From a bacterium (GTDB lineage Bacteria; Patescibacteriota; Minisyncoccia; UBA6257; JAUSGH01): DNA of 50,337 nucleotides. This document shows positions 43,364 to 50,337 of this stretch, in pieces. Where the stretch lies: positions 1-50,337 of the forward strand of contig JAUSGH010000012.1 in assembly GCA_030649055.1 (NCBI GenBank), read 5' to 3'. The notes beneath the pieces were generated by a model. That model was not told the origin of the DNA. It saw only the letters and a list, made by a program, of their open reading frames with translations, and did no database searches. The translations under genes were made by a program, and so were the position numbers. Position 1 is the stretch's first letter. The number at the start of each line of letters is the position of its first letter.

Positions 43364-44095
43364 ATGGCCGCGGCTAAAGGCAAATTTATCGTCATTGAGG
43401 GCACTGACGGTTCCGGAAAGGGGACGCAGTTTCAAAAATTGGTTGAACGGCTGAATGTGGTGAATGTTCCGCTTGCCACGTTTGATTTCCCGCAATACGG
43501 GAAGCCGTCGGCGTATTTTGTTGAGCAGTATTTGAATGGACGCTACGGCGCCATGAACGAGAGTGTCAGCGGATTATTCGCGCTGGATCGCGTTGACGCG
43601 GTAAGTCCCGAGGCCGCCTCGCTTTTTTATGCGCTTGATCGTTTTGATATACGGAAAGATATAAACGACGCGCTCGCGGCGGGGAAACTTGTGCTTTCCA
43701 ATCGCTACGTGACTTCCAATATGGGGCACCAGGGCGCGAAGATTGCGCGCAAAGTCGATCGCGCGCGTTACTTGAAGTGGCTGGATAACATCGAGTATGG
43801 AATTTTGGGCGCGGCTCGGCCAGACATGGTCATCTTGCTCCACGTGCCGGCGGCAATCGCCCAGCAGCTCATCGCGAAAAAAGCGGAGCGCAAATATCTT
43901 GAGGGCGTCAAAAAAGACATTCACGAAAAAAATCTTGAGTATTTGAAAAACGCGGAGGCGGTGTATCTGGAAGTCGCCGCGATGTATCCGGAAACATTCC
44001 GTGTCATTGAGTGTACCGAAGGCGGCAATCTAATGCCCATTGAGGCGATTCATGAGCGCGTATGGGCGGTAATTGAACCGTTGACGCGCCGTTGA
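43364..44095 (+). CDS. tmk: Thymidylate kinase
   Basis: A 243-residue dTMP kinase. P-loop GTDGSGKGTQ (13-22), the DR-type substrate motif FALDRVDAV/FYALDRFDIRKD, the NRYVTSNMGHQGAK region and the C-terminal helices. It phosphorylates dTMP to dTDP. Longer than the E. coli enzyme (213), closer to forms with a longer lid region (KAERKYLEGVKKDIHEKNLEYL). No SD. Its stop overlaps the promoter of the next gene. Confidence 0.93.
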   Translation: MAAAKGKFIVIEGTDGSGKGTQFQKLVERLNVVNVPLATFDFPQYGKPSAYFVEQYLNGRYGAMNESVSGLFALDRVDAVSPEAASLFYALDRFDIRKDINDALAAGKLVLSNRYVTSNMGHQGAKIARKVDRARYLKWLDNIEYGILGAARPDMVILLHVPAAIAQQLIAKKAERKYLEGVKKDIHEKNLEYLKNAEAVYLEVAAMYPETFRVIECTEGGNLMPIEAIHERVWAVIEPLTRR

Positions 44096-44119
44096 CATCA
44101 CGTGCTCGCGGGCTATGCT
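44092..44119 (+). promoter_or_regulatory. Strong promoter overlapping the tmk stop
   Basis: TTGACA (44092-44097), a 16-base spacer and TATGCT (44114-44119). It reads into the gene at 44153. The -10 matches those of the three cassettes that follow. Confidence 0.7.
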
Positions 44120-44152: not shown

Positions 44153-44692
44153 ATGCTGAACGAATTGACGCTGAGCGAGGCGTGGGAAAAGGAAGCAAAT
44201 CGTTTGCGCTCCCTGCCCAACCCCGTGCGTGAAGCGTTCGCCAAGCATGCGAGAAATGAAGCGCTGCGGAGGTGGACGGGGACGCATAAGCGCAAGGCGG
44301 AGGATCTGCCGACGGCGGTTGCCGCCGGAACCACCGAACTCCGCGCGTTCTTCGCCGGTTTGGAGGGCGCGCGCATGGAGTCATTGCTGCGGGCAAGCGG
44401 CAGGCGGATCGAGCTGGGGAAGGCGATCGTGATGGGATTCTCCGGGGAGTACGTCGTTGAAGAACACGGCATGTTCCTGGAGTTCTGCAGCCTGCGGGAG
44501 TGGGAGAATCGGGGAGGTAGAGCGACCAAGTGGAGATTCCATCTCACCGTTGAGGAAACGGTGTGGGTCGTGCTCGCGTGCCAGTGGCGGAAGCCGGAAG
44601 AAGTCGCGCAGGCCCTGCGCGAGGAGGTGGCAATCATTCTCCACGGCTCGCTGGACTCGCATGACCCGATCAATAGGAAGCGGAGAGAGTAG
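44153..44692 (+). CDS. Protein of unknown function before the cassette array
   Basis: A 179-residue soluble protein, mostly helical, with Arg/Glu-rich helices (SEAWEKEANRLRSLPNPVREAFAKHARNEALRRW) and a central beta part (IVMGFSGEYVVEEHGMFLEFCS). No family recognised. CGGAGGTGA precedes the ATG. Promoter and hairpin terminator of its own make it a single-gene unit like the three cassettes downstream, but the protein is not obviously related. Confidence 0.68.
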   Translation: MLNELTLSEAWEKEANRLRSLPNPVREAFAKHARNEALRRWTGTHKRKAEDLPTAVAAGTTELRAFFAGLEGARMESLLRASGRRIELGKAIVMGFSGEYVVEEHGMFLEFCSLREWENRGGRATKWRFHLTVEETVWVVLACQWRKPEEVAQALREEVAIILHGSLDSHDPINRKRRE

Positions 44693-44700
44693 CGTACGAA

Positions 44701-44731
44701 CGAGGCAGTCCCGCATTACGGGACTGCCTCG
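44701..44731 (+). terminator. Hairpin after the 44153 gene
   Basis: CGAGGCAGTCCCG-CATTA-CGGGACTGCCTCG, 13 bp. Only a weak U-tract (AACTCGTTT). Confidence 0.7.
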
Positions 44732-44749: not shown

Positions 44750-44778
44750 TTGACGCCCTAGGATTTTCTCGCTATGCT
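44750..44778 (+). promoter_or_regulatory. Cassette 1 promoter and shared leader
   Basis: TTGACG, 17 bases, TATGCT, followed directly by GGTTGCAGATTGGTTTAGG and then CAGTTGGAGG. The same arrangement recurs at 45240 and 45852. Confidence 0.8.
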
Positions 44779-44818
44779 GGTTGCAGATTGGTTTAGGTTT
44801 CAGTTGGAGGATGCTCGC

Positions 44819-45175
44819 GTGGTAGATAACAGCGACTTCGACGGCGCAAAATGGCGATGCGCAGACGAATTCGCCAAGTTCTGGGATGGCCCGGAGGGTG
44901 TGGCGGCTCGGGCGGTACTCAAGGAGCGTAAGAAGACAATCACGATCGGGAAGGAGGAATGGACTGGCGGTTGGCACACCTTCGTGCTCGATGGGCAGGG
45001 TCACACGGACTATTCGGATGGGGGATCGCGTTCTAACCCGCTGACGGCCTTCGGTATCGTGTCGTTGTGGCTGGTGCAGGATGCGTCACGTAAGCCAAGC
45101 GACTTCATGCCCTGGCTGGATGCGGAACTTGCGAAGGCGAAGTCTCCACGCCCATGGTGGAAGTGGTGGGGATAG
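44819..45175 (+). CDS. Cassette 1 protein of a novel tandem family
   Basis: A 118-residue protein of unknown function. Core pattern shared with the next two genes: an acidic start, FAKFWDGPEGVAARAVLKERKKTITIG, a variable beta stretch, NPLTAFGIVSLWLV and a closing FMPWLDAELAKAK. The GTG start at 44819 has TTGGAGG at the right distance. An ATG at 44774 gives a longer frame but lies within the -10 box and is rejected. Own promoter and terminator. Confidence 0.7.
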   Translation: MVDNSDFDGAKWRCADEFAKFWDGPEGVAARAVLKERKKTITIGKEEWTGGWHTFVLDGQGHTDYSDGGSRSNPLTAFGIVSLWLVQDASRKPSDFMPWLDAELAKAKSPRPWWKWWG

Positions 45176-45195
45176 CGGAACGAGCGTGTATGCGC

Positions 45196-45239
45196 GGGGC
45201 AGAGTCCGGAACATCGGACCCTGCCCCGAACCATTTTTG
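45196..45239 (+). terminator. Cassette 1 terminator
   Basis: GGGGCAG/CTGCCCC with inner GTCCG/CGGAC, then AACCATTTTTG. It merges into the -35 of cassette 2. Confidence 0.8.
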
Positions 45240-45268
45240 TTGACGCTTCTCGATTTTCCCGATATGCT
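45240..45268 (+). promoter_or_regulatory. Cassette 2 promoter and shared leader
   Basis: TTGACG, 17 bases, TATGCT, then GGTTGCAGATTCGTTTAGTG and GTTCCAGTTGGAG. Confidence 0.8.
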
Positions 45269-45309
45269 GGTTGCAGATTCGTTTAGTGGTTCCAGTTGGA
45301 GATATACTG

Positions 45310-45798
45310 ATGAGCGCGTTTGCCGGGAGATGTCGTCGCGCTGCCGATCGGTATCGGCGGAATCGCGATTGTTTCATTCCCAACATCAAGTATCCGCCGG
45401 ACGTGGAGTCCGAGATTCAGGACGCCGCGGAGAAATTCCAGAAGTTCTGGGACGGGGCGGATGGCGAGGCCGCTCGGAAGATGCTCAAGGAGAGCGGGAA
45501 GTTCGTGGAGTTCGGCCGCGACGAGCACGGAGTGGTGGACTTTTTCCATGGTGAGGGTCACCACCGGATGTTCGGCACCTTGCTGGTGCAGACGAACCCC
45601 TACGCCTCCTATGGCATCGTCCGTAGTTGGTTGGAGAGCGAGCCGGGCCGTGAGCCCAAGGGGTTCATGCCATGGCTCAAGTCGAAGCTCTGGGAGATCG
45701 TTGACGCTGCGCCGAAGCCGAAGAGGGCGAGGAAACCGAAGAAGCCGGCGGCGTATGCGGTGTCGGATGGCACGGCGGGTTGCGAGCGACAGGGCTAG
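45310..45798 (+). CDS. Cassette 2 protein of a novel tandem family
   Basis: A 162-residue protein. A basic N-terminus (MSAFAGRCRRAADRYRRNRD) precedes the family core FQKFWDGADGEAARKMLKESGKFVEFG, NPYASYGIVRSWLE and FMPWLKSKLWEIV. A Lys/Pro/Ala-rich tail is unique to this copy. The start at 45310 follows TTGGAGATATACTG. The in-frame ATG at 45271 lies just after the -10 and is rejected. The core is about 40 per cent alike to cassette 1 by eye. Confidence 0.7.
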   Translation: MSAFAGRCRRAADRYRRNRDCFIPNIKYPPDVESEIQDAAEKFQKFWDGADGEAARKMLKESGKFVEFGRDEHGVVDFFHGEGHHRMFGTLLVQTNPYASYGIVRSWLESEPGREPKGFMPWLKSKLWEIVDAAPKPKRARKPKKPAAYAVSDGTAGCERQG

Positions 45799-45805
45799 TT
45801 ACGTG

Positions 45806-45843
45806 CGGGACGAGTCCGATGGACTCGTCCCGAACTTATTTTT
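45806..45843 (+). terminator. Cassette 2 terminator
   Basis: CGGGACGAGTCC-GAT-GGACTCGTCCCG, then AACTTATTTTTAAT. Confidence 0.85.
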
Positions 45844-45851
45844 AATCTCGG

Positions 45852-45880
45852 TTGACGCTTCTGAGCTTTCTCGTTATGCT
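45852..45880 (+). promoter_or_regulatory. Cassette 3 promoter and shared leader
   Basis: TTGACG, 17 bases, TATGCT, then GGTTGCAGAATCTCTTAGTG and GTTCCAGTTGGAGG. Confidence 0.8.
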
Positions 45881-45921
45881 GGTTGCAGAATCTCTTAGTG
45901 GTTCCAGTTGGAGGTACAGAT

Positions 45922-46257
45922 ATGAGCGTTGAACTTTGCGACAGTGCATCGCTCGACGAGGTGGAGGCGGCGGTTGAGGGCTTTCTGAAAAGTCCTGAGG
46001 GCGTAGTTGCTCTCGAGAAGATCAGGGTCGCGGGGAGTTGTCTCACAATCAACAATCTCCGCACGCACGCGGACGTGCTTTGCGAAGGAGGCTTTTGTAT
46101 GGATGTGCCGTATTTCGGAATGCACTGCTTCGGATCCGGCCGTCCGTTGAAGACTATCATCGCGGACTGGGCAGCGAAAGTTCGTCGCCCGGCTTCGGTC
46201 TTCTTGCCGGCATTGAAGGCCGGACTCGACAAGATCGGCAAGGCGAGTGGCAAGTAG
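45922..46257 (+). CDS. Cassette 3 protein, diverged member of the family
   Basis: A 111-residue protein. The family core is present but weaker: VEGFLKSPEGVVALEKIRVAGSCLTI, a Cys-rich beta stretch (DVLCEGGFCMDVPYFGMHCFG), then PLKTIIADWAAK and VFLPALKAGLDKI. TTGGAGG lies eleven bases before the ATG at 45922. Own promoter and terminator. The function is unknown; the Cys residues are not shared with the other copies. Confidence 0.7.
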   Translation: MSVELCDSASLDEVEAAVEGFLKSPEGVVALEKIRVAGSCLTINNLRTHADVLCEGGFCMDVPYFGMHCFGSGRPLKTIIADWAAKVRRPASVFLPALKAGLDKIGKASGK

Positions 46258-46266
46258 CGTTCGAAC

Positions 46267-46306
46267 GGGGCAGAGTCCGAGACATCGGACCCTGCCCCGA
46301 TCCATT
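46267..46306 (+). terminator. Cassette 3 terminator
   Basis: GGGGCAG/CTGCCCC with inner GTCCG/CGGAC, then GATCCATTTTC. Nearly identical to the cassette 1 terminator. Confidence 0.8.
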
Positions 46307-46370: not shown

Positions 46371-46418
46371 GGTTCGACAAGCTCACCAACTATTATATCC
46401 TGAGTTTATCGAAGGATT
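46371..46418. repeat. TTCGACAAGCTCA...TGAGTTTATCGAAGG repeat pair
   Basis: An inverted pair of the CCTGAGCTTGTCGAAGG family just before the HD gene. Confidence 0.7.
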
Positions 46419-46428
46419 TCCATTGCTC

Positions 46429-49224: not shown

Positions 49225-50337
49225 ATGAATAGAAATATGCTGCGGTTGTTTATTGTCATTGGGATTTTTCTTTCCATCCCCGCATATTCCGCATCTGCCC
49301 AAACCTAGAGCGCGCAAACGTCGGGGACTTCCGACAGCCTTAGCGGCGTTTCATTTGTGAATTCGACAACGGGGTGGGTAGTGAGTAATGTTGCGACCAT
49401 TTTTGCAACGACAGACGGCGGCTCAACATGGACTGCGCAGACATCAGGCACGTCAAATCCGCTCCTCGATGTACACTTCGTGAATTCTACGACCGGTTGG
49501 GCGGTGGGCGCGAATGGAGAGGTTCGTGTGACAACGAATGGCGGTTCAACTTGGAGTGGACAGACATCGGGCGTTGCAATTTCTCTAAATGGAGTTTTCT
49601 TTACAGACGCGTCGAATGGTTGGGCGGTAGGCGCGAGCGGCGTAATCCGCGCGACAACCAACGGCGGCTCCACTTGGAGTGGGCAAACCTCTGGCACTGC
49701 TGAGATTTTGAACGACGTTTATTTCGCTGATGCAAATAACGGCTGGGCGGTCGGAAATAGCGGCACGATTCTCACAACAACTAACGGCGGCTCCACTTGG
49801 AGTGCGCAAATTTCAGGAACCACCGACGGACTTTATGGTGTGTCATTTGTAAGTGCTTCAATCGGCTGGGCGGTTGGTGGTGATTCAAGGGGCGGGACGC
49901 AGGCAATTCTAAAAACGACAAATGGCGGTTCCACCTGGACGGCGCAAACCGGCACCACCGATGAGTTGATAGGTGTTGCATTTGTGGATTCAAATACCGG
50001 CTGGGTCGTGAGTAATACACCGGCGATTCTTGCGACGACCAATGGCGGTTCCACATGGGCGACGCAGGCGCCTGGCACCGCGAATGCCCTCGATGCTGTT
50101 TCGTTTATTGACGCAACGACCGGTTGGGCAGTGGGTGATGCCGGCACCATCCTGAAATTCACCGGCGCCGCGGGATCGTCATCAACTGGTAATCCCCGCG
50201 CCCCGCTTTCATTTATCGAACAACAGCGTCGTCTTGCCCTTCACCTCACCCCAAACACCCCTTCTGCCGCGCGCGTGCTTCCGCTCACATGCTCCAACGG
50301 CGATTGCCCGCTTGATATTGAATTCACATATGATCCG
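49225..50337 (+). pseudogene. Secreted BNR/Ycf48-like repeat protein with an in-frame TAG at codon 28
   Basis: The frame from ATG 49225 encodes a signal peptide (LRLFIVIGIFLSIPAYSASA) and then TAG at 49306-49308. The same frame stays open to the window end for 343 codons. These encode about seven repeats of roughly 45 residues (FVNSTTGWAVG...TTNGGSTWSAQTSGT), a BNR/Asp-box-like propeller as in Ycf48 proteins, followed by a different domain (PLSFIEQQRRLALHLTP...). The TAG stands exactly where the repeats have the Trp of TWSAQ, so one G-to-A change explains it. Real nonsense mutation, sequencing error or amber readthrough are all possible. The 3' end is beyond the window. Confidence 0.75.

Follow-up and report, generated by a model that had tools for sequence, protein, structure and literature searches.

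The stretch of DNA analyzed here (the window, 50,337 nucleotides) holds a real, clean, and unusual array of four head-to-tail single-gene units, which form an island of 2.2 kb flanked by tmk and an HD-domain gene and encode an undescribed protein family. We infer, with a probability of roughly one in three, that the array supplies strongly and separately expressed, diversifying cytosolic proteins that bind partners, likely parasite or conflict molecules. The genome comprises 875 kb in 23 contigs and belongs to a class of small genomes, in keeping with CPR/Patescibacteria. A sequence-only reading of the window had described a paralog array of three members. The array stands, but its members number four when the gene at 44153 (g0) is counted alongside u1, u2, and u3. 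The units are composed as follows.

44092..44119, + strand: unit 0 promoter, TTGACA-16-TATGCT (sequence motif)
44153..44692, + strand: unit 0 gene (g0), 179 aa, divergent fourth family member by shuffle test against u2
44701..44731, + strand: unit 0 terminator hairpin (-27.9 kcal/mol, z -7.1)
44750..44778, + strand: unit 1 promoter, TTGACG-17-TATGCT (motif and alignment)
44779..44818, + strand: unit 1 leader, GGTTGCAGA...CAGTTGGAGG, conserved and unstructured, with Shine-Dalgarno sequence (alignment and folding)
44819..45175, + strand: unit 1 gene (u1), 118 aa, GTG start, 39 of 93 aligned residues identical to u2
45195..45228, + strand: unit 1 terminator hairpin, nearly the same as that of unit 3 (comparison and folding)
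45240..45268, + strand: unit 2 promoter, TTGACG-17-TATGCT (motif and alignment)
45269..45309, + strand: unit 2 leader, conserved (alignment and folding)
45310..45798, + strand: unit 2 gene (u2), 162 aa, ATG start (ORF, AlphaFold2 model)
45806..45832, + strand: unit 2 terminator hairpin, followed by a T-run (folding)
45852..45880, + strand: unit 3 promoter, TTGACG-17-TATGCT (motif and alignment)
45881..45921, + strand: unit 3 leader, conserved (alignment and folding)
45922..46257, + strand: unit 3 gene (u3), 111 aa, ATG start (ORF; marginal sequence kinship to u1)
46266..46299, + strand: unit 3 terminator hairpin, 93% identical to that of unit 1 over 43 nt (comparison and folding)

The promoter TTGACG-17-TATGCT was found exactly at 44750, 45240, and 45852, as the earlier reading had claimed for three units. 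The leaders that follow are 40 to 41 nt long, start with GGTTGCAGA, and carry AGTTGGAG as their Shine-Dalgarno sequence. They had been called nearly identical, which agrees with pairwise identities of 82, 76, and 82% for promoter plus leader (z 14 to 22; 82% for u1-u2) and with 45 invariant columns out of 65 in the alignment. BLAST placed the shared leader at only three positions in the 875-kb genome, those of units 1 to 3, and the leader of g0 differs from it. The claim that each unit ends in its own hairpin terminator was borne out at -24 to -29 kcal/mol (-27.1, -24.3, and -29.0 for u1, u2, and u3), with z values from -5.6 to -7.5 across all four units. The near identity of the terminators of units 1 and 3, which had also been noticed, is evident from the feature list. 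Judged by this anatomy, each unit is probably transcribed separately and strongly. The anatomy would fit the suggestion that the array was built for separate expression, but units of this solo kind are frequent across the genome, and a design of separate units is therefore not special to this family.

The leader might be conserved because it coordinates the units as a regulatory RNA, be it a riboswitch, an sRNA target, or an attenuator, and a 30-nt 5' untranslated region conserved past the promoter and Shine-Dalgarno sequence would be in keeping with such a role. However, the leaders of units 1 to 3 folded no better than their shuffled versions (z +1.24, +0.29, and -0.29), the leader matched no Rfam family above its gathering score, the Rfam scan of the window returning only tRNAs, and no long complementary match was detected elsewhere in the genome. 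A coordinating RNA of this kind is highly improbable, and the leader may hold a short sRNA seed or a protein site.

In shuffle tests, the proteins u1 and u2 proved to be closely related (z 23 to 30), and g0 resembled u2 with z 6.7 to 7.3, a similarity that 0 of 1,000 shuffles reached. The gene at 44153 had been credited with the same type of -10 element and solo layout; this holds, but the gene shares more than layout, as it is homologous to u2. By this measure, g0 is a fourth, older, and divergent member of the family. The assertion that the genes of units 1 to 3 are related is very strongly supported for u1 and u2, but for u3 the similarity was marginal or not significant: z 2.6 to 3.7 against u1 (28% over 92 in the alignment) and z 1.5 to 1.9 against u2, which is not significant alone, with a likewise nonsignificant result against g0. 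The common leader and terminator, the marginal alignment, and a similar order of elements in the AlphaFold models weakly suggest that u3 belongs to the family.

The GC3 of all three ORFs from u1 to u3 is coding-like (0.68 to 0.80). Between u1 and u2, fourfold sites are saturated, with 6 of 21 identical, and differences are fewest at second codon positions (30 versus 44 and 51), which argues that both are old, constrained coding sequences. Set against the 82% identity of their leaders, the same fourfold sites uphold the earlier statement that the leader is better conserved than the protein. Since the leaders are alike, the terminators of units 1 and 3 nearly match, and the proteins are far apart, the flanks appear to have been conserved or homogenized while the proteins diverged. 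Kinship among the units is mosaic: u1 goes with u2 in the coding sequence, u2 with u3 in the leader, and u1 with u3 in the terminator, and g0 resembles u3 just after the stop codon (TAGCGTNCGAACGNGGCAG). Such a pattern does not suit one duplication series with uniform clocks and requires selection on the flanks, recombination between copies, or both. Leader conservation could also come from recent duplication of the flanks by some copying process rather than from the needs of expression.

The backbone around the array has the order nusG-rplK-tmk-HD gene-gatB. In G387, a relative from another family of the same taxonomic order, by inspection about 45 nt separate tmk from the HD gene and the island is missing, whereas this gap measures 2.3 kb in the window; the present genome is the sole representative of its family among those compared. 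The island genes have a GC3 of 0.68 to 0.80, compared with 0.60 to 0.63 in nusG, the L11 gene, tmk, the HD gene, and gatB, and a GC content of 0.58 to 0.62, compared with about 0.52 in flanking genes. On position and composition, we regard the four-gene block as an insertion-type island. Insertion within a conserved operon neighborhood, the higher GC content, and the promoter and terminator belonging to each gene would all suit single-gene accessory cassettes that were carried in by a mobile element or phage, in the manner of morons, and were duplicated later. Against such an origin, which we consider quite unlikely, no integrase is present among the genes from rplK to gatB, no att-like repeat was detected, and searches of phage (50,697 records), plasmid (72,556 records), and viral (2.9 million contigs) sequences yielded no relative.

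Integron gene cassettes were rejected, as each unit has its own promoter, no integrase lies between rplK and gatB, and the Rfam scan gave tRNAs only. A toxin-antitoxin or immunity system recognizable by an adjacent cognate partner was likewise rejected: the flanks are tmk and the HD-domain gene, and the four proteins had no PADLOC match. No defense or toxin gene adjoins the array, and no catalytic motif was seen in the four proteins. In G579 and G581, orphans near this operon were considered as possible relatives and proved unrelated to the array's four proteins. In G581, a tandem pair of paralogous orphans (L074:6049-6916; mutual score 164) lies downstream of gatB and is unrelated to the array family. 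Two further features of the window were recorded. An interspersed element, TTCGACARGCTCA...TCGAAGGA, occurs at 46373-46420 and at 22 other places in 384 kb, one copy being located in the leader of the HD gene directly after the array. At 49225-50337 lies a secreted repeat protein whose start is signal-like and whose repeats follow GGSTW..Q.SGT...V.F.....GWAVG; it continues past the contig end and has an in-frame TAG just past the signal region, and we take the repeats to resemble YCF48/BNR propellers.

Searches for relatives agreed with the earlier impression of an unrecognized family. None of the four proteins had a match above cutoff in Pfam, PHROGs, NCBIfam, or PADLOC, or a meaningful match among PDB sequences, and a pattern-based search of GTDB contigs with u2 returned nothing. 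A profile of the family matched this genome alone among 244 genomes of the order and 380 of the phylum; weak protein matches in class genomes (E 0.001 to 0.01) were not taken as relatives. When the leader was searched as a sequence model in the 244 order genomes, one match below 0.001 was obtained outside this genome (G498, E 8e-5); it lies inside a gene resembling tryptophanyl-tRNA synthetase and was treated as chance. The same applies to a match in G387 that lacks the cassette layout and to the single match of the leader pattern among 85k GTDB species, inside a 484-aa ORF of a Verrucomicrobiales record. Weak BLAST matches of the leader in class genomes were in unrelated sequence.

The sequence-only reading had named two outcomes that would speak against it. 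One was a placement of the proteins in unrelated known families, and the libraries, PDB sequences, and folds placed them in none. The other was the lack of homologues anywhere; none were found outside this genome in the searched collections, but four related copies exist within it. These copies, the saturated synonymous divergence of u1 and u2, and the retained core residues indicate that the family is lineage restricted rather than unreal. As far as the searched collections reach, both the family and its leader are lineage restricted in their sequence.

The AlphaFold2 model of u2 has a core of two helices, four strands, and two helices (residues 30 to 133). Its mean pLDDT is 71, with values mostly from 76 to 91 in the core and one dip to 66. 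The model of u3 follows the same H-H-E-E-E-E-H-H order at a mean pLDDT of only 63; it was built on the same four-sequence alignment and is not independent of the u2 model, because that alignment included other family members. A fold search gave no match at E <= 0.001 in PDB or BFVD, only noise. Inspection of the N termini by eye revealed no signal peptide, lipobox, or transmembrane stretch in the four proteins, which are probably cytosolic. This bears on the idea that they are secreted effectors or surface variants by which an episymbiont acts on its partner cell. A genome this small hints that the bacterium depends on other cells, and variable paralog arrays behind one conserved upstream sequence are exemplified by the erp/ospE-related surface lipoproteins of Borrelia (literature cited in PMC10016077). 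Yet the apparent lack of signal peptides in g0 and u1 to u3 argues against surface antigens, which the earlier reading had suggested beside toxins, immunity proteins, and effectors; the C termini of the four proteins differ, and we find secretion or surface display very unlikely.

Units of this style were scanned for in 384 kb of the 875 kb (about 44%), taken as stretches and including the window. Strict combinations of promoter, Shine-Dalgarno sequence, and small ORF numbered 16, of which 4 are the island, versus 0 in a reversed control, a contrast that is somewhat flattering because reversal breaks reading frames. The 16 units have a mean GC3 of 0.75 and are mostly GC-rich orphans. TAG stops were found in 14 of 19 solo units and 31 of 73 long genes, a difference that is suggestive only. 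Relatives within the order carry similar small solo genes, such as a 110-aa gene with a GC content of 0.62 in a genome of 0.43. In G342, which belongs to another family, two solo orphan units adjoin each other (L091:13746-14794), each behind a TTGACA-17-TATACT/TATAAT promoter of its own.

A second multicopy orphan family, with the N terminus TNERLVKLVESGLWD, the core PLTPTTFG...PPF.DEGGWD...ADG, and eight matches, was also detected. Its copies share a leader, CACGCCCAAAT...TAGTGCGGGYGATGC...TTTTGGACAGGAGGTCT, which is unlike that of the array and precedes differing cores. They include L045:3747-4340 and the contig ends of C7, C9, C11, and C15 (L099-L105); the position of four of the eight at contig ends suggests that the copies break the assembly. 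This family was absent from the 188 class genomes searched. Cassettes with a conserved leader and a variable protein are thus, in sequence, a recurring layout in this genome and not unique to the array.

The commonness of such units raises the possibility that the array consists of ordinary lineage-specific orphans, a cluster of local duplicates with no special role in diversification, whose flanks are alike because purifying selection acts on such short functional elements. The genome has many further solo units that combine a consensus promoter, a Shine-Dalgarno leader, and a terminator, 0 of the 10 tested outside the island had a Pfam or NCBIfam family above cutoff, and an unstructured leader makes a regulatory RNA unnecessary. 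On the other hand, leaders more than 80% identical over more than 45 nt were not seen in any further pair of units across the 384 kb, and the primary sequence of terminators is rarely kept, yet that of units 1 and 3 is. We judge this explanation possible but doubtful.

Our preferred reading, that of diversifying partner-binding proteins, would proceed as follows. Whole cassettes from promoter to terminator would have been duplicated in tandem to yield the units. What keeps their flanks alike would be recombination among the copies, selection for strong constitutive expression, or the two together. The small, probably cytosolic proteins with their helix2-strand4-helix2 core would meanwhile diverge, each to fit a partner that differs or changes. 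The partners would most likely be parasite or conflict molecules (of the phage, mobile-element, or toxin kind), and the proteins may, more speculatively, act as protective inhibitors of the immunity type. By analogy, the logic would be the same as in early anti-defense genes of archaeal viruses, with one regulatory sequence in front of dissimilar small proteins.

These small-genome bacteria have many genes without any known match, and the most promoter-like sequences here mostly precede such orphans. In one family, conserved flanks accompany diverging proteins, and a pattern of this sort brought anti-defense genes of archaeal viruses to light. If the reading is correct, the similarity of promoter plus leader could sort dark-matter genes into functional sets and pick candidates for assays of defense, counterdefense, or host interaction, and the array would point toward solo orphan cassettes as a general class. 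It is a more far-reaching, and on balance unlikely, proposal that the dispersed GC-rich single-gene orphan cassettes with near-consensus promoters in genomes of this order form a fast-turnover protective or conflict repertoire, in which recombination homogenizes the flanks of some families and new variants are expressed at once.

Several known systems share parts of this layout. Phage morons are single genes with their own promoter and terminator that are inserted between older genes. The array has the same one-gene insertion layout but lies outside a phage genome, and no phage relatives were found. In the halovirus HF2, intergenic repeats carry promoters for different downstream genes (PMC8707807), as the repeated intergenic sequence of the array appears to do; unlike the array, these repeats are viral and archaeal and do not accompany a set of paralogs. 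The early genes of SIRV2 are small genes that share regulatory sequence, in sharp contrast to their low gene conservation, and for some genes of this type an anti-defense role was already known or was demonstrated (PMC11065993). Both they and the array consist of small, hypothetical, mostly single genes with similar and strong regulatory sequence, the strength being predicted in the case of the array, and dissimilar proteins. However, the SIRV2-type genes belong to archaeal viruses, use TATA/BRE promoters, and come with a gene for the regulator Aca8 (PMC11065993), whereas the array lies on the chromosome between housekeeping genes, each unit has a sigma-70-type promoter and a strong terminator of its own, and no relatives were found in the viral collections searched. 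The Borrelia erp/ospE-related genes with an "upstream homology box" encode surface lipoproteins on cp32 prophages. Like the array, they are variable and lie downstream of a conserved sequence that all share, and family members mutate and recombine with each other (cited in PMC10016077). The array, by contrast, is a chromosomal tandem whose products are probably cytosolic, with no lipobox seen by inspection. On the sequence features compared, the array resembles the SIRV2 early genes and the Borrelia erp genes in layout only, and it shows neither the viral origin of the former nor the surface signals of the latter.
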